A stretch of 64,000 bases of DNA, from NCBI RefSeq assembly GCF_001529295.1, contig NZ_LLWK01000038.1:186001-250000 (forward strand), written 5' to 3'. A program made the translations under genes and the position numbers. This DNA comes from Flavobacterium sp. TAB 87. Lineage in GTDB: Bacteria; Bacteroidota; Bacteroidia; Flavobacteriales; Flavobacteriaceae. Positions 39,831-50,673 of the stretch are shown piece after piece (the first letter of the stretch is position 1; each line of letters opens with the position of its first letter). The notes below the pieces were generated by a model. It saw only the letters and a list, made by a program, of their open reading frames with translations. It did not search any database and was not told the DNA's origin.

Positions 39831-39867
39831 CCTAAAATGAAAATCATCTTAGGCATTTTATTTTTTT
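39831..39867. terminator. Terminator between the WYL regulator and the DinB gene
   Basis: CCTAAAATGA (39831-39840) pairs with TCATCTTAGG (39844-39853, one mismatch), followed by a T-run. It serves the plus-strand gene; a shorter A-rich left flank gives only weak function for the minus strand. Confidence 0.7.
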
Positions 39868-40345
39868 ATCTTTCCCAGAAAAATGGAGGGTCAATATTCA
39901 AGGCTCTTAAGTAAACATATCCTTGACCTCGATGATGGACTTCATTGTCTATAAAATATAGAATATTTTGAATGACAGGAAATTCATATTGTCCAAACAA
40001 ATTAAAAGTTTTACTAAAATCATCAGCTGATAATTTATGCCAGTAGGTATTAATTTTTAAGGTCGATTCGTCCCATTTTTCAAGATACTGCGCTTTAGAG
40101 ATTAAATTTTCTTCGCCTTCGCCAAAAGGCTTTACTTCTTGTTCGACAATAGCTTTAAGTGCAGGAAAAGCAATGGATAAAAGTTCATCAATTATTTTGG
40201 AAAAAGGACGCATTCCTGCAATTGAAAATTCAAAGAAATCTTTTTCAGGAAATAGTTCAATAACTTTGCGTGTTAATGCACGATGTCCTTGCCAGTGTTT
40301 CAATAAATCTTCAGATGTAATAATTTGCGCTTCAATTGTTTTCAT
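39866..40345 (-). CDS. DinB-like four-helix-bundle protein
   Basis: The 159-residue protein has the DinB/YfiT helix pattern: AQIITSEDLLKHWQGHRALTRKVIEL, then PFSKIIDELLSIAFPALKAI and EHHRGQG-like NEVHHRGQGYVYLRAL with the metal-binding His pair. The function of DinB domains in bacillithiol-type or other thiol chemistry is not provable here. ATG 40345 is preferred over a start 36 bases upstream because homologues begin near MKTIEAQ. It is convergent with the WYL regulator. Confidence 0.82.
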   Translation of the reverse strand: MKTIEAQIITSEDLLKHWQGHRALTRKVIELFPEKDFFEFSIAGMRPFSKIIDELLSIAFPALKAIVEQEVKPFGEGEENLISKAQYLEKWDESTLKINTYWHKLSADDFSKTFNLFGQYEFPVIQNILYFIDNEVHHRGQGYVYLRALNIDPPFFWER

Positions 40346-40498
40346 AATTTTATTTTTTAAGTACTTCAAAGGTAGATTCATCGAGTGACAACAGTTTGTC
40401 AGTAGTGAAAATTAAAAGTTATTCTAGAATTTACAGAACTATAAAAATTGGGCAAAAATGGATGCTTTTTTAAATTAGAGAAAACCTTCACAACTTTG

Positions 40499-40506
40499 TA
40501 TCTTTG
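40499..40506 (+). promoter_or_regulatory. Promoter -7 element of thiL
   Basis: TATCTTTG matches the -7 consensus, 31 bases before the thiL ATG. Confidence 0.5.
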
Positions 40507-40536
40507 CCTCTTAAAAATCACTGGAATTCATAAAAA

Positions 40537-41592
40537 ATGATAGAAGATAAAAATCCACAAAGAACGAGCATTGCACAATTGGGTGAATTTGGTTTGATTG
40601 AACATTTGACTAAAGATTTTGACATCAAACAAGAATCTACACTGAAAAGTATCGGCGATGATGCTGCGATCTTAGACTTTAAAGATAAGAAAGTAGTCGT
40701 TTCGACGGATTTACTGATTGAAGGTGTTCACTTTGATTTGGCTTACATGCCGTTGAAGCATTTGGGCTATAAAGCAGTGGTGGTAAATCTCTCTGATATT
40801 TGCGCAATGAATGCAAAACCGACACAAATCACGGTTTCAGTTGCCGTTTCTAATCGTTTCCCTTTAGAAGCTTTGGAGGAATTATACGTTGGAATCTCGT
40901 TGGCTGCCAAAGAATACAATATTGATGTTATTGGCGGCGATACGACCTCATCACAAACTGGTTTAATTATAAGTATTACCGCTCTTGGCGAAGCTGATGA
41001 AGCTGAAATTGCCTATAGAGATGGAGCCAAAAAAACAGATTTGTTAGTAGTTACCGGAGATTTGGGCGCCGCTTACATGGGCTTGCAAATTTTGGAGAGA
41101 GAAAAACAAGTTTTTCAAGTAAATCCAAACTCACAACCAGATTTAGATTTATATACTTATTTAATTGAACGTCAATTGAAACCAGAAGCACGTAAAGATG
41201 TTCGCACCTTGCTTCATGCTCTAGAAATAAAACCGACTTCGATGATCGATATTTCTGACGGATTATCTTCAGAAATCATGCATCTCTGCAAACAATCCAA
41301 AGTTGGTTGTAATTTATACGAAGATAAATTGCCTTTAGATCCTCAATTTATTTCGGCTTGCGAAGAATTCAATATTGACAGTACTACCGTGGCTATCAAT
41401 GGCGGTGAAGATTACGAGCTTTTATTTACTATTGACATTAATGATTTTGATAAAATAAAAGGAAATCCGAACTTCTCTGTGATCGGTCACATGTGCGACG
41501 AATCCGAAGGTATCCATTTAGTCACACGAGCAGATACCAAAATTGCTATAAAGGCAAGAGGCTGGAACGCTTTAAGCGAAGAAACAGAATAG
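40537..41592 (+). CDS. thiL: Thiamine-phosphate kinase
   Basis: The 351-residue enzyme phosphorylates thiamine monophosphate to thiamine pyrophosphate. Features include the N-terminal GIGDDAAIL-like KSIGDDAAILD, the VSTDLLIEGVHFDL motif, VNLSDICAMNAKP and GGDTTSS. The ATP-binding GDLG and the C-terminal ING GEDYELLFT region are also seen. Length is typical. It has its own promoter and ends in a bidirectional terminator. Confidence 0.94.
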   Translation: MIEDKNPQRTSIAQLGEFGLIEHLTKDFDIKQESTLKSIGDDAAILDFKDKKVVVSTDLLIEGVHFDLAYMPLKHLGYKAVVVNLSDICAMNAKPTQITVSVAVSNRFPLEALEELYVGISLAAKEYNIDVIGGDTTSSQTGLIISITALGEADEAEIAYRDGAKKTDLLVVTGDLGAAYMGLQILEREKQVFQVNPNSQPDLDLYTYLIERQLKPEARKDVRTLLHALEIKPTSMIDISDGLSSEIMHLCKQSKVGCNLYEDKLPLDPQFISACEEFNIDSTTVAINGGEDYELLFTIDINDFDKIKGNPNFSVIGHMCDESEGIHLVTRADTKIAIKARGWNALSEETE

Positions 41593-41596
41593 AACA

Positions 41597-41629
41597 AAAA
41601 AGCGACATTATTTAAATGTCGCTTTTTTT
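41597..41629. terminator. Bidirectional terminator between thiL and the response regulator
   Basis: AAAGCGACATT (41599-41609) pairs with AATGTCGCTTT (41615-41625). Flanking A-run and T-run allow termination in both directions. Confidence 0.85.
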
Positions 41630-42317
41630 ATATAAATCCTTTTAATTTGGCCTCTTTAATTAGCTCAGAATCTAATCCTGATTTGATCTTAAATAATTTC
41701 TTTAACTCTACTTTTCTGCGTTCAATTGCACTTAAGGTAATCGGAATGTATTTTGGGAATTCTTTGTCTTCTGTGCCTTTAGATAAATGAAATAAAATCT
41801 CTCTATCAAACTGATCCAATTCAATTGCATTATTCTTTGATTGTTGCAGCATTTTGAGAACCGATTTACTGTAATATTTCTCGTTGTTTATTACTTTATC
41901 AAAACCGAACAGCAACTCATCAAAGGTTAAATCATTTTTAATAATTAGTCCACTGGGATTAATCTTCTTTATAATGGTTTTTATCTTTAACATTTCAGTA
42001 AACATGGTTAACAAAATGACTTTGCAAGTCCCCATTTTAGCGTTTATCAATTTTGCTAAATCTTCTCCCGTAAAAATGTTTTTTTCTTCGTAAGCCGGCA
42101 TACTTATATCCAAAAAAGCGATGTCAAAAGGATTTACTGTTGAACCAGTGATAATGTTATACGCAGATTCGCAATCTTTAGCTTGAGTGATCGAAAACTC
42201 GTATTCATCTGACTTATATCTCGCGATTCCGTTTTTGTATCCTTCAATTATAAAAGGATGATCGTCAACTATTAAAATGCTTTGCTTAATTTTTTTCGAC
42301 TTGTTGGTATTAGACAT
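41628..42317 (-). CDS. LuxR/NarL-type response regulator
   Basis: The 229-residue protein has an N-terminal receiver (VDDH near 18-20, phosphoacceptor D70 in AFLDISMP, T in LLTMF, and K in LIIKND). The C-terminal region (about 160-229) is a divergent LuxR-like HTH (DREILFHLSKGTEDKE, ITLSAIERRKVELKKLF). It overlaps the TPR histidine kinase gene by 8 bases, so they form a cognate two-component pair. Target genes are unknown; the neighbouring repeat-peptide gene is a candidate. Confidence 0.88.
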   Translation of the reverse strand: MSNTNKSKKIKQSILIVDDHPFIIEGYKNGIARYKSDEYEFSITQAKDCESAYNIITGSTVNPFDIAFLDISMPAYEEKNIFTGEDLAKLINAKMGTCKVILLTMFTEMLKIKTIIKKINPSGLIIKNDLTFDELLFGFDKVINNEKYYSKSVLKMLQQSKNNAIELDQFDREILFHLSKGTEDKEFPKYIPITLSAIERRKVELKKLFKIKSGLDSELIKEAKLKGFI

Positions 42318-44364
42318 CGTAGTTTTTTAAATTATGTTTATTGGGTTTCATCGGGAAAATAATTGTGATCACAGTACCATTTGTGTCCGAGTTAATTTCA
42401 AATTTTCCATTACATTCTTTAATCCTATACTTTATATTTTGCAAACCAATTCCCTTTTTGGATTGTCTAATATTAAAACCAATTCCGTCGTCAATTATTG
42501 TTAAGACCAGTGTATTTTTTTGCTTTTTTAGAACGATATCTATTTTTTGAGCTTTGGCATATTTATTTGAATTTTGCAAAGCTTCTTGAATGATCCTGTA
42601 AATATTGATTTTTTTTGCATTTTCAATATTTTCCCATTTAATGGCCCTGTCAATAGCAACTGTTAAGCACGTTTCAAAATTTCGTTTTTGATCTTCTAAT
42701 AATTTATCAAGAATAGTAACGAAATTATTAATTAATTCTGACTTTTCTTTGCTCAAATCATGTGATATTTCTCGAATGTCTTGTTCGATATTTTTCAATT
42801 CATCCAAGTAAACAGTTCTTTTTTTCGAGGCATCGTCGTCATTTATTTGATTGATGCTATCTAGACTCATGCGCAATCCGAACATTCGACTTAAAACACC
42901 ATCATGTAATTCTTGCGCAACTCGTTTTTTCTCATTAATCCTAATGCCTTCAATTTGATTTTGCTGCTGAATCATTAAGTTATAAATATCCTCGTTTGCC
43001 AGTTGTTGCTGCTGTCTAAAGATCAACTCGCGGTGTTTAATATGTTGTGATTTGTAGCTATAAAAAAACAATCCAATCAAACATAAAATACTAAACACAT
43101 AAAACAAAGTTCGGTTTTGCATACTCAGCGCCTGATTTTCATTAATAACCTGATCTGTTTCATATTCTATACGGGTAAACTTATCTCCCATCTTGCGCTC
43201 TGCTTTTTGCAAACTATCATTGATACGAATATAACTTTTAGAGTAAACGGAGGCTTTTTGAGGCTCTAAAACCGAAAGTTGCTTTAGAGCAACGAGAACA
43301 TTACGAGCGTTTCCCGATGTTTTCGCAGTCGCCAAGGCTTCTTTTAAGTACTGAAGTCCTTTGGCCTTGTCATTATTAGCAATATAATATTCAGATAAGT
43401 GCAGTTTACTAGCAATAATTCCTGCAGTTAGTTGTAAACTATCTCGTATTTTTAATGATTTGTAGAATAGTTTTGGTAAACCGCTCGTATCTTTCATTTT
43501 GAATTTAGCATATCCCAAATTATCCAAAACTATAGCGTATAAGCCCGTTTTTTGTTGTTTTAATTTTTTTTGCCCCAAGGCTTCATTAAAATAAAACTCT
43601 GCTTTTTTATAATCTTTTAAGCTTAGAAAAACGTACCCTAAATTATTATATGAAGTGGCCTTTGGCTGAAATTCTTCAGGAATAAAATTTGTATTAATTA
43701 CAGAAAAAGCTTTTTTATGAAACTCTAGTGCTTTATTATAGTCTCCCAAATCGTTGTACAAAGCTCCTAAAAGATTATAGGAATCAAAAAGTACAGTAAT
43801 GCTTTTCTCATCCTTTAATGCTCGTAAGGCATTAAAAGTAGAAATTTCACTTCCTACATAATCACTAATTTCATACTGAAGCGTAGCCTTGTTTAAGAAT
43901 GTCTTAGCTAAGTTAAAATTGTCATTTCTTTTTCTGAAAATTTTCTCTGCTTGAAGGTAAAAGTAAAAAGCACTATCAGACTTTGACTGTGCAACGTAGT
44001 AATCTCCAAAATAAGTAAATGCCTTTGCTAATGAAGCAGAGTCTTTAATTTCTCTAGATTTATGTACAATTGTGCTTACTGTAGTTTTATAATCTGGCCA
44101 ACTTCCCATGTTATAAAATCGATTAGCAACCTTAAATAAGTTTATTCTACCAATAGAGTCATTGGGATGCTCCACAATAATATCAAAAGCTTTCTGATTA
44201 AAATTACGCTTGTGTTCAAAAGTCAAACTGTAATCATTTGCTAATAATAGATATTCTGGCAGGCTATCCTTATCATACTTGACTAGTTCTTTTGGATCGT
44301 CTCTATGCGTACAAGAAAGTAAGAATGAAATACAAATACATATTGCAAAAATTTTATTCTTCAA
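42310..44364 (-). CDS. TPR-containing sensor histidine kinase (NarL family)
   Basis: The 684-residue protein has a lipoprotein-like start (ISFLLSCTHRDD, Cys near 18), an extracytoplasmic TPR array (about 60-400) and one membrane segment (about 410-430, RTLFYVFSILCLIGLFFYSYK). Then come a HisKA_3 domain with the phosphoacceptor His in VAQELHDGVL near residue 480, and a HATPase domain with N-box IYRIIQEALQNSNKYA and DDGIGFN. TPR sensor domains usually bind peptides or protein partners. It overlaps its response regulator by 8 bases and follows a small repeat-peptide gene. Confidence 0.9.
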   Translation of the reverse strand: MKNKIFAICICISFLLSCTHRDDPKELVKYDKDSLPEYLLLANDYSLTFEHKRNFNQKAFDIIVEHPNDSIGRINLFKVANRFYNMGSWPDYKTTVSTIVHKSREIKDSASLAKAFTYFGDYYVAQSKSDSAFYFYLQAEKIFRKRNDNFNLAKTFLNKATLQYEISDYVGSEISTFNALRALKDEKSITVLFDSYNLLGALYNDLGDYNKALEFHKKAFSVINTNFIPEEFQPKATSYNNLGYVFLSLKDYKKAEFYFNEALGQKKLKQQKTGLYAIVLDNLGYAKFKMKDTSGLPKLFYKSLKIRDSLQLTAGIIASKLHLSEYYIANNDKAKGLQYLKEALATAKTSGNARNVLVALKQLSVLEPQKASVYSKSYIRINDSLQKAERKMGDKFTRIEYETDQVINENQALSMQNRTLFYVFSILCLIGLFFYSYKSQHIKHRELIFRQQQQLANEDIYNLMIQQQNQIEGIRINEKKRVAQELHDGVLSRMFGLRMSLDSINQINDDDASKKRTVYLDELKNIEQDIREISHDLSKEKSELINNFVTILDKLLEDQKRNFETCLTVAIDRAIKWENIENAKKINIYRIIQEALQNSNKYAKAQKIDIVLKKQKNTLVLTIIDDGIGFNIRQSKKGIGLQNIKYRIKECNGKFEINSDTNGTVITIIFPMKPNKHNLKNYDV

Positions 44365-44408
44365 ATTATTTTAATATTTATCAAAAATACTAAAAAGTAA
44401 GCATAAAA

Positions 44409-44437
44409 AAAGAGGTTATCAATACGATAACCTCTTT
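44409..44437 (-). terminator. Intrinsic terminator of the repeat-peptide gene
   Basis: AAAGAGGTTATC (44409-44420) pairs exactly with GATAACCTCTTT (44426-44437). The A-run to its left is the U-tract on the minus strand. The histidine kinase gene begins 45 bases further on, so it needs readthrough or its own promoter. Confidence 0.88.
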
Positions 44438-44455
44438 AAAAGACATTTTTTTTAT

Positions 44456-44656
44456 TTAATCTACTTTTCTATTTCCGCCAACTGAACTTCCGTTGATGTC
44501 TACTTTTCTATTTCCACCTACTGAACTTCCACCAATATCAATAGAGTTAGAAGTTATATTCATTGCAATATTTTCATTCGAAACTTCTGGAGAAAATGAA
44601 GAAGTTAATACCATTACTGAAGCTAAAAGACCGAATGTTAAGATAGATTTTTTCAT
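44456..44656 (-). CDS. Small exported peptide with two 13-residue repeats
   Basis: The 66-residue product has a classical signal peptide (MKKSILTFGLLASVMVLTSSFS). Two tandem copies of a 13-residue unit, DI(G/N)GSSVGGNRKV, end at the C-terminus followed by Asp. The coding repeats are 39 bases each (44461-44499 and 44500-44538), with seven mismatches, so they are not recent duplicates. No lipobox Cys is present. I do not recognise a family. It lies between a LytTR regulator and a TPR sensor kinase on the same strand, and has its own terminator. It could be a secreted signal peptide precursor or a small surface protein. Confidence 0.75.
   Translation of the reverse strand: MKKSILTFGLLASVMVLTSSFSPEVSNENIAMNITSNSIDIGGSSVGGNRKVDINGSSVGGNRKVD
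44461..44538. repeat. Tandem 39-base coding repeat, two copies
   Basis: Copies at 44461-44499 and 44500-44538 differ at 7 of 39 positions, with most changes silent or in the linker. They encode the repeat units of the small exported peptide. Confidence 0.8.
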
Positions 44657-44830
44657 GTTTTGTTGGTTTTATGTTTTTATATTTTTTACTACTTTTGGAC
44701 CTGCTTACTGCAAATCTTGGTGTAAAACTAAAACCTAAACCCCCATTTTTTGATGCATAAAAGCCTCTTTATGGTACAAGTAACTCGTACACTAGCGTGC
44801 GTATAGTCATACAAGGTAAATTACTAATTC

Positions 44831-45646
44831 TTAGACTTCTAAGTAATTGTCTTCTGAAAAATTATCAATAATTAACTCAATATTAGACCTATAAGACTTA
44901 GAAAACGGAATTTTTTTAACCGTATTTCGAAGCGTACATAACTTGCTACCAGTATGTATGCGCGCAATATAATTGCTGTTAATTAAATAGCTGTTGTGAA
45001 TTCTATAAAACGGATTCCGTAATAAACCTTCAAAATGCTTTAACGTTTTAAAAGCAGTGATCATCTCGCCAGTCTGCAAATAGATGTCCGTTGAATTATT
45101 ATCGGCTTTAAAATAAACGACTTCATTGGCCCGAATGTATCGGTAATCACCATATGATTTCACACACAATAACAATGATTTTTCGGAACTGATAACATTC
45201 GAAACAAAATTAGATTCAACATTACCATCTAATAATGAAAGCGCTTGCTGCTGCATTTGTTCTAATTTACTCGTTTTTGTAATAGCTAAAACCGCTTGAA
45301 AAAATTCATTTCTGTGAATCGGCTGCAATAAATATCCCGAAACCTGAAAATTAATCGCTTCAAAAGCCAATTCCTTAGACTTTGCTGTCACTATGACTTT
45401 CGGAACAACAGTCAAATATTTATGTAGTGCATTAATAAAATGCAGCGACAATTGACTCTCCTTAGCTTTAGGATCTATCGCAAGAAATATTATTTTAGGA
45501 GTATGTGCTAAGACTAAGTCTAAACCTTTTTGATACTCAGTGGCCGAAGCTACAAAGAGTAACTCTTGACAATCATCAGCATAATCCTTAAGCTGCGCAG
45601 TAGTTTCAAGACAATCATTAATAATAATATAGGTTAATGCACTCAT
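44831..45646 (-). CDS. LytTR-family regulator with degenerate receiver
   Basis: The 271-residue protein has an N-terminal receiver-like domain and a C-terminal LytTR DNA-binding domain (about 160-262, with GDYRYIRANEVVYFKADNNSTDIYLQTGEM and FYRIHNSYLINSNYI). The receiver lacks the phosphoacceptor: in IIFLAIDPK the expected Asp is A56. The conserved Lys is replaced in LLQPI by Q108. The T87 position is kept (VIVTAKS). It is therefore probably phosphorylation-independent, or it responds by binding another ligand. No cognate kinase is adjacent; the nearest is the TPR kinase, which has its own regulator. Confidence 0.88.
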   Translation of the reverse strand: MSALTYIIINDCLETTAQLKDYADDCQELLFVASATEYQKGLDLVLAHTPKIIFLAIDPKAKESQLSLHFINALHKYLTVVPKVIVTAKSKELAFEAINFQVSGYLLQPIHRNEFFQAVLAITKTSKLEQMQQQALSLLDGNVESNFVSNVISSEKSLLLCVKSYGDYRYIRANEVVYFKADNNSTDIYLQTGEMITAFKTLKHFEGLLRNPFYRIHNSYLINSNYIARIHTGSKLCTLRNTVKKIPFSKSYRSNIELIIDNFSEDNYLEV

Positions 45647-45810
45647 TCTATTTTTCTACTATTTAAATTGGCACCGCCAAATTTTACAAATATTAAATAA
45701 ACATAAAAAAAACTATCTATTTGAATCAAATTAATAAAAACAAAATTTATTGGCTAAAAGAAAACATTGCAATAAAAAAATGAAAAATAATATTTCCACA
45801 CAAAAAACAA

Positions 45811-45826
45811 ATCGTAATATTGCGAT
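45811..45826. promoter_or_regulatory. ArsR operator overlapping the ars -7 promoter element
   Basis: ATCGTAATATTGCGAT is an imperfect palindrome (ATCG-yAATATTr-CGAT) directly before the arsR ATG. It contains TAATATTG (45815-45822), one base from the -7 consensus, so bound repressor would block transcription. The match to ArsR-type operators is from general knowledge of that family. Confidence 0.7.
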
Positions 45827-46156
45827 ATGGGAATCACAAAAACAATTGGCTTTGACATGGAGACCAACGAAATGGCCGAAATTCTAAAAGCATTAGGGCA
45901 TCCCGCGCGCTTGGCCATTGTCAAGCACTTAATACAAACACCATCTTGCATTTGTGGCGACATTGTAGCCGTACTGCCATTGGCGCAATCTACCATTTCC
46001 AAGCATTTATCTGAACTAAAAAAAGTAGGGTTAATACAAGGCAACATTAGCGGAAACAACAGCTGCTATTGCTTAAACCCTGAGACTTTTAACCGAATCA
46101 AATTATTTTTAAATACACTTACAGCTTTTTCTATTACTGAAAACAAATGCTGTTAA
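45827..46156 (+). CDS. arsR: ArsR-family arsenite-responsive repressor
   Basis: The 109-residue winged-helix protein has KALGHPARLAIVKHL, then C41-I-C43 in SCICGDI as the arsenic-sensing Cys motif, and LPLAQSTISKHLSELKKVGLI as the recognition helix region. A terminal CC (NKCC) may add ligands. Start ATG 45827 is preferred on homologue N-termini (MGITKT). A second start at 45857 would leave a normal leader after the operator. The next gene's frame overlaps its end by ten bases if read from its first possible start. Confidence 0.93.
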   Translation: MGITKTIGFDMETNEMAEILKALGHPARLAIVKHLIQTPSCICGDIVAVLPLAQSTISKHLSELKKVGLIQGNISGNNSCYCLNPETFNRIKLFLNTLTAFSITENKCC

Positions 46157-46173
46157 CATCAAAAACTCACACT

Positions 46174-46677
46174 ATGAAATGGTCCGAATTTAAATCGCAA
46201 TTAAGTCAATTTCCATCACATCATTTGCAATTCGAAATAACGAAAGACACTTTTGTACATCCTTCTTTTCACATCACCGAGATCAAGCAAGCCAACATTA
46301 CGTCGGTAGATTGTGGCGGAAAAAAGAACGAATGGACAGAGATTATCGTGCAACTTTGGGAGCCGGAAGTGCTAGAGAATAATCGCTCCATGCAAGTTAC
46401 CAAAGCACTTTCTATAATCGAATTGGTCGAAAAATCAGTTGCTCTAGATTATAATGCCGCAGTAAAAATTGAATTTGGAAATGCTGTTTTTGAGACCAAA
46501 CAAATGCTTCCGCAGGAATTCGAAATCAAAAATGACGAACTTATCCTAAAATTGCAAACAGATGCCACGCAATGCAAAGCCATCGATCGCGGAGAAGCTT
46601 GCGGCACTCCAAAACCAAAACTTAAAATCACCAATGCATCAGAGAATGTTTGCACACCAGATTCAGGTTGCTGCTAA
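46174..46677 (+). CDS. DUF6428-type Cys-tailed protein in ars operon
   Basis: The 167-residue cytosolic protein has a compact alpha/beta N-terminal domain (MKWSEFKSQLSQFPSHHLQF, HITEIKQANITSVDCGGK). It ends in a Cys-rich tail (RGEACGTPK and CTPDSGCC). Such proteins are found between arsR and acr3 in flavobacteria. Function is unknown; the paired Cys residues at the tail could bind As(III) or a metal and hand it to the pump (inference). ATG 46174 gives the compact start; an earlier ATG at 46147 overlaps arsR. Confidence 0.82.
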   Translation: MKWSEFKSQLSQFPSHHLQFEITKDTFVHPSFHITEIKQANITSVDCGGKKNEWTEIIVQLWEPEVLENNRSMQVTKALSIIELVEKSVALDYNAAVKIEFGNAVFETKQMLPQEFEIKNDELILKLQTDATQCKAIDRGEACGTPKPKLKITNASENVCTPDSGCC

Positions 46678-46687
46678 AGTGTAATCC

Positions 46688-47713
46688 ATGAAAAAACTAT
46701 CTTTTTTAGACAATTACCTCACACTTTGGATATTCATTGCCATGTTTATTGGCGTGGCTTTAGGCTATTTTTATCCCGCAATATCCACGCACATCAACAG
46801 CCTCAGCTCAGGAACTACCAACATTCCTATCGCCATTGGCTTAATCTTAATGATGTATCCGCCACTGGCAAAAGTCAATTATAAATTACTCCCAAAGGTT
46901 TTCAAAAACACAAAAATCGTATCCATTTCGCTCGTACTAAATTGGATAATCGGACCTTTTTTGATGTTTTTTCTAGCCATCATTTTCCTAAAAGAATATC
47001 CAGAGTACATGATCGGACTAATCCTCATCGGCTTAGCGCGCTGCATCGCCATGGTTTTAGTCTGGAACGATCTCGCACAAGGAAATTCCGAATATGCCGC
47101 AGGTTTAGTAGCCCTAAATAGTATTTTTCAGGTTTTTTTCTATAGTTTTTATGTCTGGATTTTCATCACCATTCTACCGCCTTATTTTGGTTTCGACGGC
47201 GCGATCGTCGATATTTCCATCGCAACCATCGCTCAAAGTGTGGCCATCTACCTTGGCATTCCTTTTATTTTAGGGTTTTTGAGCCGCGCTATTTTAGTCC
47301 GCAGCAAAGGCGAAAACTGGTACAATACCGTATTTATCCCAACCATTTCGCCACTTACTTTAATCGCATTATTGGCCACAATTGTTGTGATGTTCAGTCT
47401 AAAAGGAGAACTGATCTTGCAAATCCCAAAAGACATCATCATCATCGCCATTCCCATGCTGATTTATTTCCTACTCATGTTCCTTATTAGTTTCTTCACC
47501 ACCAAAGCCGTTGGAGCAACCTATGACAAAAATACCGCCGTTTCTTTCACCGCCGCTGGAAACAATTTCGAGCTCGCCATCGCCGTTGCCATTGCGGTGT
47601 TTGGCATCAACTCTGGCCAAGCATTTACGGGTGTTATCGGCCCTCTGGTCGAAGTTCCCGCGCTTATCCTCTTGGTAAAAGTCTCCTTTTGGCTCAAGAA
47701 AAAGTATTACTAG
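46688..47713 (+). CDS. acr3: Arsenite efflux transporter, ACR3 family
   Basis: The 341-residue protein has ten membrane helices and exports As(OH)3-type arsenite by proton exchange. The functionally required Cys is C119 in [16 protein letters not shown], and the conserved Glu lies in [15 protein letters not shown] near residue 296. N-terminal [23 protein letters not shown] is typical. It is the last gene of the ars operon, 10 bases after the Cys-tailed protein. No arsC gene lies in the operon. Confidence 0.95.
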
Positions 47714-47800
47714 TTGGGCGTGCCGCCTCCCACGGGGTCGGCGTCGGGCTTTCGGGTCTACACGGTAGCCACCTCTATCCCTCACGCGGCCGCGATTTTC
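47714..47800. repeat. GC-rich intergenic segment resembling a dispersed repeat
   Basis: From about 47716 the sequence changes abruptly to G+C-rich (GGGCGTGCC, GGGGTCGGCGTCGGGC, CTCTATCCCTCACGC). It lies immediately after acr3 and has no plausible coding. The GGGCGT start and TCTATCCCTCACGC end recall a Flavobacterium interspersed element (from memory). It may also act as a structured 3' end for the acr3 mRNA. Confidence 0.5.
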
Positions 47801-48017
47801 AAAATCACATTTAGATTTTAATTACAACATTATTTTTAGGATCGACCACCATTTTTTGCACTTGTAGTTCGTCCCAAATTTTACTAATTCACACAAATTA
47901 TTTAGGGGAAATCTCCGCTGGAAAAACAACGAATAAAGTTTCTAACTCTGATTTCACTTATTTAAAAACAAGCAAAATCTCCGCGATTACTTTTTCAAAA
48001 ATCGTACAACGTATAAA

Positions 48018-48054
48018 CATACCTACAAGGTTAAAAAAAACCTTGCAGGAGATC
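48018..48054. repeat. 37-base direct repeat, copy 1
   Basis: Identical to 48181-48217. It holds CCTACAAGG, an A-rich loop and CCTTGCAGG, a near-perfect hairpin (one mismatch). Confidence 0.85.
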
Positions 48055-48180
48055 TTACTTAGCTTTAAAATCATAATTATCGAGAATTTGTGGAATTTGT
48101 GGTTAAAAAAAGCTCGCTATTTCCTAGGAAACTTTTGAGCATTCTGATCTTAAAAATAAAAAAAATACACTTAAGGAAAT

Positions 48181-48217
48181 CATACCTACAAGGTTAAAAA
48201 AAACCTTGCAGGAGATC
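48181..48217. repeat. 37-base direct repeat, copy 2
   Basis: Identical to 48018-48054. Flanking sequence (ACTTTAAAATCA and GAATTTGTGGAATT) is also partly shared, so the duplicated unit is about 80-90 bases. Confidence 0.85.
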
Positions 48218-48288
48218 GTACGCAACTTTAAAATCAAATAATTAGCAAGAATTTGTGGAATTGTAGTTAACATATTATGAGATAATTT

Positions 48289-48326
48289 AAAAAAAATCCC
48301 AAACTCCAGTGTTAGGAATTTGGGAC
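48289..48326 (-). terminator. Intrinsic terminator of glyS
   Basis: TCCCAAA (48297-48303) pairs with TTTGGGA (48319-48325). On the minus strand the hairpin is followed by a run of U. Confidence 0.85.
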
Positions 48327-48352
48327 TTTAAATATTTAAAATCTAACGAAAA

Positions 48353-49894
48353 TTACATCTTCATCAACCAGTTTTTCATCGAAACTTCGTTTTCAATAAT
48401 TCCAGCCAATTCAGTAATTTTTACGCGATCTTGTTTCATCGTATCTCTGTGACGAATCGTAACCGTTTGGTCTTCGATCGTTTGGTGGTCTACCGTAATA
48501 CAAAACGGAGTTCCCAATGCATCTTGTCTTCTGTAACGACGACCAACCGCATCTTTCTCATCATAGGCCACATTGAAATCCCATTTTAAATCAGCAATGA
48601 TTTTATGTGCAATTTCAGGCAATCCATCTTTTTTAACCAATGGCAAAACAGCCGCTTTTGTTGGAGCCAAAACCGATGGTAATTTCAATACAGTTCTAGA
48701 TGAACCATCTTCTAAAACCTCTTCTTGCAATGAAGTTGCAAAAACAGCCAAGAACATTCTATCCAAACCAACTGAAGTTTCTACCACATAAGGCACATAA
48801 TTCTGATTCAGTTCTGCATCAAAATACTGTAATTTTCTGCCTGAATGTTGTTCGTGTGCTTTCAAGTCAAAGTCAGTACGCGAGTGAATTCCTTCCAATT
48901 CTTTAAATCCAAATGGGAAATTAAATTCGATATCAGTCGCTGCATTAGCATAATGCGCTAACTTTTCGTGATCGTGAAAACGGTAATTTTTTTCTCCTAA
49001 ACCAAGTGACAAATGCCATTTTAAACGCGTTGTTTTCCAATGTTCGTACCATTTCATTTCGTCGCCTGGACGTACAAAAAATTGCATTTCCATTTGTTCA
49101 AATTCACGCATTCTAAAAATAAATTGTCTTGCAACAATTTCATTTCTAAATGCTTTACCTGTTTGGGCAATTCCAAAAGGAATTTTCATACGACCTGATT
49201 TTTGTACGTTTGCAAAATTCACAAAAATACCTTGAGCTGTTTCAGGACGCAAAAACAAATCCATTGCTGAATCTGCCGAAGCGCCCAATTTGGTACCAAA
49301 CATCAAGTTGAATTGACGTACTTCAGTCCAATTTTTTGAACCAGAGTCTGGACAAGCAATTTCTAATTCTTCAATTAAAGATTTAACATCACCCAAATCT
49401 TCATTGCCAAGAGAACGACCCATTCTTTCTAGAATTTCGCGTTCTTTCGCTTTGTATTCCATCACACGAGCATTCGTCGTAACAAATTCTTGTTCGTTAA
49501 ACGCATCGCCAAAACGAGTTCTCGCTTTTTCGATTTCTTTGATCGCTTTTTGATTCAGCTTTTCAGCATAATCTTCAATCAATACGTCAGCTCTATATCT
49601 TTTTTTAGAATCTTTATTGTCAATCAATGGGTCGTTGAAAGCGTCAATGTGACCCGAAGCTTTCCAAGTGGTCGGATGCATCAATATTGCAGCATCTAAG
49701 CCGACAATATTTTCGTTCATCTGTACCATCGATTTCCACCAATATTCACGGATGTTCTTTTTTAATTCTACTCCATTTTGTGCATAATCATAAACCGCAC
49801 TTAAACCATCGTAGACTTCGCTCGACGGAAAAATAAATCCGTACTCTTTTGCGTGCGAAACTACATTCTTAAATATATCTTCTTGTTTTGCCAT
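48353..49894 (-). CDS. glyS: Glycyl-tRNA synthetase (single-chain type)
   Basis: The 513-residue class II enzyme charges tRNA-Gly. It is the alpha2-type found in Bacteroidota, not the alpha2beta2 form. Motifs include FRNEIVARQFIFRMREFEQMEMQFF (motif 2), the GLDRMFLAVF segment (motif 3), and a C-terminal anticodon-binding domain (about 415-513, VAYDEKDAVGRRYRRQDALGTPFCITVD). It ends in a strong terminator. Confidence 0.97.
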   Translation of the reverse strand: MAKQEDIFKNVVSHAKEYGFIFPSSEVYDGLSAVYDYAQNGVELKKNIREYWWKSMVQMNENIVGLDAAILMHPTTWKASGHIDAFNDPLIDNKDSKKRYRADVLIEDYAEKLNQKAIKEIEKARTRFGDAFNEQEFVTTNARVMEYKAKEREILERMGRSLGNEDLGDVKSLIEELEIACPDSGSKNWTEVRQFNLMFGTKLGASADSAMDLFLRPETAQGIFVNFANVQKSGRMKIPFGIAQTGKAFRNEIVARQFIFRMREFEQMEMQFFVRPGDEMKWYEHWKTTRLKWHLSLGLGEKNYRFHDHEKLAHYANAATDIEFNFPFGFKELEGIHSRTDFDLKAHEQHSGRKLQYFDAELNQNYVPYVVETSVGLDRMFLAVFATSLQEEVLEDGSSRTVLKLPSVLAPTKAAVLPLVKKDGLPEIAHKIIADLKWDFNVAYDEKDAVGRRYRRQDALGTPFCITVDHQTIEDQTVTIRHRDTMKQDRVKITELAGIIENEVSMKNWLMKM

Positions 49895-49992
49895 AGTACT
49901 GCAAAAATATAAAAAGAACCCTTAAAAAAAAGGAAATAGGCAAAGATTGCTGCGTTGAATTTTATATTTTTATAAATAAATTCTTCCTAAGT

Positions 49993-50673
49993 ATGTGGAA
50001 ACATCTTTTAAATCTATTTTTTCCGAAAGTTTGCTCCGGTTGTCATGCTTTTTTGATTGCCAACGAAACTGTAATTTGCACCAAATGCAGACACGAAGTT
50101 CCACTTACGCAGCATCATCTTCATTCAAAAAATGAAGCTTTTCAAAAGTTTTATGGCAAAATTGATGTTATTCATGCTTCTGCTTTTCTATCTTTTCATA
50201 AAAATGGAATCGCACAAGAATTAATTCACCATTTAAAATATAAAAAACAAGAAGAAATTGGCTCTATTTTAGGCAACTGGTATGCCGAAGATTTAAAAGA
50301 AATTAAACCTGAAATTCCTTTTGACATTGTAATTCCGGTACCTCTGCATCCAAAAAAACAAAGGGAAAGAGGCTACAATCAAACCACTACTTTTGGAAAA
50401 GCGGTAGCCGCAAACTTATCCTTACAGTTTAACGAACAAATTCTTCTTCGCAAAACCTATTCTAAAACACAATCCAAAAAGAATCGTTTGGGTCGAGCCG
50501 AAGGAATCGAGAAAGCTTTTGACGTCGTATTTACCGATCAAGATCACAACAAGCACTTTGTCTTAGTAGACGATGTGTTAACTACTGGCGCCACACTAGA
50601 AGCTTGTTCGCGCGCTTTGCTTAAAATTCCAGGGGCCAAAATTAGCATCATTTGTATGGCAATGGCCAATTGA
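49993..50673 (+). CDS. comF: ComF family phosphoribosyltransferase-like protein
   Basis: The 226-residue protein has an N-terminal zinc ribbon (C14-x-x-C17 and C29-x-x-C32) and a phosphoribosyltransferase domain with the PRPP loop VLVDDVLTTGATLEA (about 192-206). The middle segment VIPVPLHPKKQRERGYNQ and RLGRAEGIEKAF are ComF hallmarks. ComF proteins support DNA uptake and transformation in other bacteria; their exact reaction is unclear. The gene ends two bases before the convergent metalloprotease gene. Confidence 0.92.
   Translation: MWKHLLNLFFPKVCSGCHAFLIANETVICTKCRHEVPLTQHHLHSKNEAFQKFYGKIDVIHASAFLSFHKNGIAQELIHHLKYKKQEEIGSILGNWYAEDLKEIKPEIPFDIVIPVPLHPKKQRERGYNQTTTFGKAVAANLSLQFNEQILLRKTYSKTQSKKNRLGRAEGIEKAFDVVFTDQDHNKHFVLVDDVLTTGATLEACSRALLKIPGAKISIICMAMAN

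Follow-up and report, generated by a model that had tools for sequence, protein, structure and literature searches.

A candidate multi-copy peptide pheromone precursor beside a sensor kinase with a predicted periplasmic TPR domain in Flavobacterium

In the yeast alpha-factor precursor, a signal sequence is followed by multiple copies of the same pheromone. In bacteria, the variable block of the agr system comprises the peptide together with the sensor portion of its kinase, and a LytTR protein is likewise found in agr; the sensors of agr and ComP are of the multi-pass membrane type. RRNPP systems are described as adjacent genes for a Sec-secreted propeptide of 10-100 aa and an intracellular TPR receptor of 250-500 aa (passages of PMC10075063). 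Phr genes often hold repeated autoinducer units, and Rap-Phr pairs diversify and spread horizontally (passages of PMC5199041 and PMC10075063), while intragenic duplication of pheromone units is reported from fungi (a passage of PMC5199041). ComQXPA unites an exported peptide, a receptor histidine kinase and a regulator in one cassette that has diversified into pherotypes (a passage of PMC4408185). FimS-FimR of Porphyromonas gingivalis has a periplasmic TPR sensor kinase, the signal of which is stated to be unknown and for which a polypeptide ligand is thought possible (a passage of PMC11053733). Our full-text search of open-licence papers found no description of a peptide system such as the one reported here. 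To our knowledge, no peptide pheromone system has been described in Bacteroidota.

Here, we analysed a 64,000-nt stretch of Flavobacterium sp. TAB 87 (contig NZ_LLWK01000038.1, positions 186,001 to 250,000 of the forward strand), referred to as the window. It encodes a small exported protein that probably acts as precursor for a peptide signal by which these bacteria recognise their kin. The respective gene is part of a cassette of fixed order, i.e., LytTR regulator, peptide, TPR histidine kinase and NarL-type regulator (Table 1).

Table 1. Features of the cassette in the window (positions of the window; all on the minus strand).
Feature	Position	Strand	Basis or remark
NarL-type response regulator	41628..42317	(-)	domain/family matches
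TPR sensor histidine kinase (HisKA_3, HATPase_c), proposed receptor	42310..44364	(-)	TTG start, lipobox Cys18
Predicted periplasmic TPR superhelix, kinase residues 32-366	43267..44271	(-)	AlphaFold2, pLDDT in blocks of ten 71-96
Intrinsic terminator, 13-pair hairpin and T-run	44405..44437	(-)	similar hairpin in 86/102 relatives
Peptide precursor gene, 66 aa, ATG start	44456..44656	(-)	ORF and relatives
Unit 2, INGSSVGGNRKVD, residues 54-66	44459..44497	(-)	repeat analysis
Unit 1, IGGSSVGGNRKVD, residues 41-53	44498..44536	(-)	repeat analysis
Signal-peptide-like N-terminus, about residues 1-22	44591..44656	(-)	sequence and invariant residues
Promoter-like element, TAGTTTTAC-type, upstream of peptide genes	44719..44731	(-)	loose pattern, 98/102 relatives
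Upstream region, direct repeats at 21-bp spacing in relatives	44768..44821	(-)	weakly kept in window
LytTR-domain regulator, upstream neighbour	44831..45646	(-)	Pfam LytTR 2e-15

The first-pass annotation had proposed an exported 66-residue peptide that ends in two 13-residue repeats, with the array closing exactly at a repeat boundary. Both parts hold: a signal-peptide-like N-terminus and a linker are followed by IGGSSVGGNRKVD and INGSSVGGNRKVD, which agree in 12 of 13 residues, and the array stops exactly at the unit boundary in the I...KVD register. When the sequence behind the signal region was shuffled 300 times, the repeat score never exceeded 6, compared to 12 for the actual array. Tandem Repeats Finder reports no DNA-level array in the window's peptide gene, probably because the array is short and 7/39 bases differ between the units. 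Signal peptides were called by a simple rule on charge and hydrophobicity; the window peptide's N-terminus is signal-like by this rule, i.e., Sec export is a prediction. Among 33 aligned relatives, M1, K2, K3, T18 and S19 are invariant. The window peptide has no Pfam, NCBIfam, PHROG or PADLOC match above the curated cut-off (or at E<0.1 where there is none), and phage records gave no match to it at E<=0.01.

We then compared gene neighbourhoods for 141 loci, i.e., the window, 60 larger loci and the best 80 of 129 relatives, which hold 102 distinct peptides; two loci (L180, L196) yielded no peptide under the extraction pattern. A LytTR gene precedes the peptide gene in the same orientation in 102/102 loci, and the kinase follows downstream on the same strand in 97/102 and the NarL-type regulator in 95/102. 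The five loci without kinase are four contig ends and L089, which has unrelated genes after the peptide; by eye, these look mobile, and neither a kinase nor a regulator is found within 16 kb. Two kinase-regulator pairs follow the peptide gene at L098, L198 and L207 and two regulators at L111, which are possibly duplicated receptors. Within the window, an ArsR regulator, a DUF6428 protein and an SBF-family transporter, which we take to be of the arsenite type, lie between the LytTR gene and glyS (45827-47713).

This neighbourhood bears on a further reading, namely a bacteriocin-like or modified (RiPP) antimicrobial peptide, the production of which would be under two-component control. The peptide is indeed small and exported, and some RiPPs have several core units in one precursor. 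Nevertheless, we consider this the least probable of all readings, since genes for maturation, peptide transport or immunity are absent from seven cassette neighbours in the window that were scanned with Pfam. Furthermore, among the annotated genes those that recur across loci are glyS (58/60 of the larger loci), LytTR, kinase, regulator and thiL (50/60), the window peptide has no named match in NCBIfam or PADLOC, and the units co-vary with the sensor domain (see below).

The kinase of the window has 684 residues and a Pfam TPR_12 match of 5.9e-17. It combines a lipobox-type start with a later membrane helix, such that the TPR part is predicted to lie between them in the periplasm. By our own rule, 54/60 kinases of named relatives start with a lipoprotein-type signal; the 55 kinases aligned for the AlphaFold2 model were chosen for this signal. 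The start codon of the window kinase is TTG, and this weak start is strikingly conserved: in 54/54 named relatives with a lipobox, the earliest start codon available 12-27 codons ahead of the Cys is always TTG and never ATG or GTG. The TPR model aligns with LGN (6hc2; Z 27.9, rmsd 6.7 A, 341 aligned residues), with NprR (5dbk; Z 25.8, 6.5 A, 344) and with Rap in complex with a peptide (4gyo; Z 25.2, 6.0 A, 337). These matches of a predicted fold are compatible with peptide binding and no proof of it. That LGN scores above NprR and Rap, and that TPR folds resemble many unrelated TPR proteins, counts against the pheromone reading.

With regard to Rap-Phr and the other RRNPP systems of Firmicutes, the cassette shares a small, putatively Sec-exported propeptide (66 aa) adjoining a TPR-bearing receptor, with adjacent genes in the window and in 97/102 loci, and the predicted fold aligns with NprR and Rap. 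Repeated units and an apparent horizontal exchange are further traits in common with Rap-Phr. In contrast, the putative receptor is a 684-aa kinase with a TPR part predicted in the periplasm instead of an intracellular protein of 250-500 aa, the units are mostly 13-15 residues long and the organisms are Flavobacteriaceae. Given the predicted periplasmic location of the TPR domain, no re-import of the peptide would be needed, unlike for intracellular RRNPP receptors. With agr and ComQXPA, the cassette has in common an exported peptide, a histidine kinase as (here putative) receptor and a regulator as well as the division into pherotypes; it differs by its TPR sensor and its tandem peptide units. 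Among the scanned window genes (39866 to 50673), we found neither an AgrB-like processing peptidase nor a ComQ-like gene. The window peptide contains no Cys, while a ring through Ser stays compatible with its sequence, and it lacks the Trp that is modified in ComQXPA peptides. The large kinase with its predicted periplasmic TPR domain and the lack of AgrB- or ComQ-like neighbours in the window thus place the cassette outside of Rap-Phr, agr and ComQXPA.

FimS is likewise a periplasmic TPR sensor kinase, but the window kinase matches the NCBIfam FimS model only weakly (1.3e-8, 33.6 bits), i.e., far below the family cut-off of 600, and the passages on FimS-FimR in PMC11053733 mention no peptide precursor, unlike the cassette here. 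The resemblance to the yeast alpha-factor precursor comes without homology. Furthermore, the cleavage signal and receptor type of the alpha-factor differ from those proposed for the cassette. Taken together, the cassette appears to share the logic of known peptide pheromone systems.

To collect relatives, we searched 398 Flavobacterium genomes with the single peptide sequence, which already found strong relatives; a family profile built on 33 relatives matches 239/398 of these sampled genomes at E<=0.001. Against named genomes, the single-sequence query found nothing, while the alignment query returned 129 relatives. We kept the best 80 of these; most carry the label Flavobacterium, and one F. 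johnsoniae strain is among them. The cassette is present with a single-unit peptide in F. johnsoniae CI04 (L205). When the family-wide search was done with the single peptide, small E-values occurred only within the genus, and we took the weak tail as chance. The profile search of 299 family genomes gave 20 matches at E<=0.01, 18 of them outside the genus; one of the latter was inspected (L136/L288) and adjoins a LytTR gene. From metagenome-assembled genomes, one contig assigned to Bifidobacterium breve (L185) and one assigned to Lentimicrobium (L180) also match the Flavobacterium peptide, the former with an adjoining LytTR gene; these assignments are probably binning errors.

The number of units varies strongly among the 102 distinct peptides. 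According to an automatic count, one unit is present in 20 peptides, two in 21, three in 16, four in 32, five in 9, six in 3 and seven in 1, i.e., 82/102 peptides have two or more units within a range of 1-7. An invariant repeat number, named by the first-pass annotation as an argument against a precursor cut into several peptides, is therefore not what relatives show. The C-terminal residue is Asp in 90/102 peptides, and 77 of these 90 end in KVD, KLD or KID. Some peptides hold two identical units split by an unrelated spacer of 7-17 residues. The single-unit peptides (20/102; e.g., L112, L192, L218, L219) have a different C-terminal tail, which is in several cases near SVNQSIGTDKKVD and ends in K-x-D; we count them against the reading as a pheromone precursor.

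Next, we compared units within and between genes. Units of the same gene show 97.4% amino-acid identity (351 unit pairs from 57 tandem arrays), and 75% of the pairs are perfectly identical, while only 71% of the codons are identical at matching residues. Within arrays, dS is 0.56 and dN/dS 0.031; 30/57 arrays are without any amino-acid change, and all 30 contain synonymous changes. That is, codons have drifted while amino acids were kept, such that the identity of units within a gene is held by selection and does not merely reflect recent duplication. Between species, the picture is reversed: 45 arrays of 14-mers have 45 distinct last units with a mean identity of 53% and a dN/dS of 0.37, where 3/45 arrays (L098, L181, L201) are in another register or end differently and blur the letter counts. 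From these sequence comparisons, purifying selection keeps the units of a gene alike while species diverge. The annotation's proposal of a precursor of several identical peptides gains support here, given units that are identical within a gene, different between species and variable in copy number.

The same data can be related to a structural reading, in which the units form an adhesive or structural repeat polymer (curli-like or beta-solenoid) and the kinase merely regulates its expression. Short tandem repeats rich in Gly, Asn and Ser on an exported protein would suit such a polymer, as would stray weak matches of single relatives to repeat or baseplate families (e.g., BppL_N with 1.2e-5 in 1/33 relatives, Gp5_C with 0.0043 as the best of two). 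We regard it as very improbable, since some genes have a single unit or interrupt two identical units with the unrelated spacer, units are identical within a gene yet change between species, the kinase sensor co-evolves with the units and the window peptide has no Pfam match above the cut-off.

The peptide gene seems to be a transcription unit of its own. A terminator had been proposed in the first-pass annotation and is confirmed as a pattern: a hairpin occurs at most 110 nt after the peptide gene in 86/102 relatives, and for 2/16 misses less than 40 nt of sequence was present there. Upstream, the TAGTTTTAC-type element lies mostly 68-79 nt ahead of the peptide start. A TAnnTTTG promoter at fixed distance was also looked for and not found. 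The TAGTTTTAC-type element is preceded by direct repeats, the three-copy match score of which peaks at a spacing of 21 bp (3.98), compared to 1.98-3.13 for other spacings and 2.75 for simple shuffles. Since LytTR proteins bind repeats about two helical turns apart, control of the peptide gene by the upstream LytTR protein is plausible and the repeat region a possible LytTR operator. In sum, the conserved terminator and the conserved promoter-like element with its upstream repeats favour the separate expression that the annotation had suggested.

To relate the peptide to its putative receptor, we used 35 close species pairs drawn from 87 species, none of which includes the window. The number of unit differences correlates strongly with dN of the TPR domain (rho 0.84) in contrast to cytoplasmic dN (0.16), LytTR dS (0.25) and glyS dS (-0.13); for disjoint pairs only (20-21 per draw), the values are 0.85 for the TPR domain vs. 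0.15 for the cytoplasmic part. This is also reflected in synonymous distances, where saturated values were set to 3.0: the median dS of TPR/cytoplasmic part is 0.75/0.61 in 7 pairs with 0-1 unit differences, 1.19/0.45 in 12 pairs with 2-3 and 2.69/0.75 in 16 pairs with more than 3. The dS of the regulator is not similarly raised in the seven pairs examined. Pairs involving L074, for which a linker stretch was assigned as core, were left in, as were pairs with units of unequal length (e.g., L074/L214), which look more different than they are. The fit is not complete: L085/L167 differ in two unit positions without raised sensor dS, and L094/L096 differ in one position with raised dS.

Partial Mantel tests given glyS were performed on the 36/45 arrays of 14-mers with all four partner genes and on the 33 that remain when L098, L181 and L201 are dropped; the window is absent because its units are 13-mers. 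For n=36, the correlation with unit distance is 0.486 for the TPR domain, 0.112 (p 0.17) for the cytoplasmic part and 0.04 and -0.13 for LytTR, and for n=33 it is 0.296 (p 0.001), 0.011 and about 0, respectively, where all such values may be inflated by phylogeny. The NarL-type regulator also tracks unit distance (0.525 for n=36; 0.22 with p 0.014 for n=33), which counts against an exclusive link between unit and sensor. Neither the set with n=36 nor the disjoint pairs changed our overall reading. Two sets of TPR helices correlate equally with the units (0.294 and 0.288), so that no binding groove is pinpointed.

Finally, we profiled DNA identity in sliding windows along the cassette for five pairs. 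For L068/L069, a block that begins at about +100 of the peptide gene and reaches to about +1600, i.e., the end of the sensor domain, has an identity of 0.65-0.79, compared to 0.89-1.00 outside of it, apart from the two final windows (0.84, 0.75). The same shape is found for L066/L070 (0.51-0.75 inside, 0.83-0.99 outside) and in milder form for L071/L076 (0.76-0.85 from +100 to about +1300). The pair L109/L110, which shares one unit, shows the reverse (0.94-0.99 inside vs. 0.67-0.93 outside), and L119/L177, also with a shared unit, has no step before the last window. That is, the stretch that begins with the units and closes with the TPR domain is diverged in 3/3 profiled pairs with different units and in 0/2 pairs with the same unit. 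Given these profiles, peptide and sensor domain appear to be exchanged as one piece.

Based on the repeated, species-specific peptide, which co-evolves with the outer region of the adjacent kinase, we propose that the small protein is a multi-copy peptide pheromone precursor that is read by the predicted periplasmic TPR domain of this kinase, a reading to which we assign a probability of about 0.78 from sequence data. The precursor would be exported through the inner membrane, as its signal sequence suggests, and cleaved at each unit boundary, directly behind the Asp of ...KVD or nearby, which would give peptides of 13 to 14 residues. The adjacent kinase would sense these with its TPR domain, which is predicted to sit in the periplasm between lipid anchor and transmembrane helix with the kinase domain inside, and would pass the signal on to the NarL-type regulator. 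The peptide promoter is probably under the control of the upstream LytTR protein. With peptide and sensor domain co-evolving and apparently swapped together, species would fall into different pherotypes.

We also asked how far such an arrangement extends beyond clear family members. For 40 genomes of the genus, chosen as 20 without and 20 with a weak match to the single peptide, a LytTR relative at E<=1e-20 was found in 14. Ten of these 14 have a small exported ORF downstream of the LytTR gene; two more have such an ORF without a clear LytTR start, and in the other 2 no small exported ORF was seen. Some of the peptides (e.g., L221, L222) are clear family members. Others differ, with five copies of EIGGRSQVPSF, the last altered (L225), or repeated units similar to SGGKKPVVGE[YF]T (L226); L223, L230 and L234 have lipoprotein-like single peptides.

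In the family sample, 66/199 genomes hold a LytTR relative at E<=1e-18. The best 28 loci from other genera, which were picked by their LytTR match alone, have an exported small ORF at most 600 nt downstream on the same strand in 25/28 cases. The respective peptides are unrelated to the Flavobacterium family, and some (L280, L281, L282) have repeats of their own. Nine larger loci picked among these all show LytTR gene, small peptide and kinase (9/9), and 8/9 the NarL-type regulator. Applied to 80 sources (the window, 60 peptide loci and 19 further loci, i.e., mostly picked for their peptide), the rule of an exported small ORF holds for 70/71 LytTR genes vs. 19/311 other genes; the respective controls are 11/55 for thiL, 7/75 for NarL-type regulators, 2/61 for glyS, 1/52 for ComF and 1/80 for kinases. 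Outside of the family, a single LytTR query of 198 genomes of the class revealed no convincing exported peptide beside LytTR genes: the detector reported 4/15 loci, of which L289 belongs to the same family and the other three are unlike the cassette by eye.

By eye, 23/25 of the peptides from other genera are lipoprotein-like and may stay attached to the membrane, which would suit another reading of the cassette: the peptide could be a periplasmic or surface ligand that a cell uses on itself, e.g., as a modulator or checkpoint reporting the state of export or envelope to the kinase. It would then be cleaved or bound where it is, without any signal between cells. A signal sequence next to a sensor kinase suits this as well, and co-evolution fits any kind of ligand-receptor pair. 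We nevertheless hold a self-directed ligand to be unlikely, since species-specific, multiplied units and the exchange of unit-sensor blocks recall socially selected signals such as Rap-Phr (a passage of PMC5199041), and a purely internal ligand would have no obvious cause for such fast diversification.

Returning to the pheromone reading, the loci of other genera may reflect peptide communication of a so far undescribed kind throughout the Flavobacteriaceae, in which periplasmic TPR kinases would receive hypervariable exported or lipid-anchored peptides, repeats would have been multiplied several times and peptide and sensor would be swapped as pherotype cassettes. We give this wider view slightly better than even odds. 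If it is true, orphan TPR kinases of Bacteroidota, such as FimS, would be candidate peptide receptors. Bacteroidota form a major phylum in soil, water and the gut. The cassette offers a testable candidate for a peptide pheromone system in this phylum, and it supplies candidate ligands that can be read from genomes, a candidate receptor domain and natural variants of specificity. It may also provide a class of ligands for periplasmic TPR kinases, among them FimS, whose signal its authors describe as unknown (a passage of PMC11053733).
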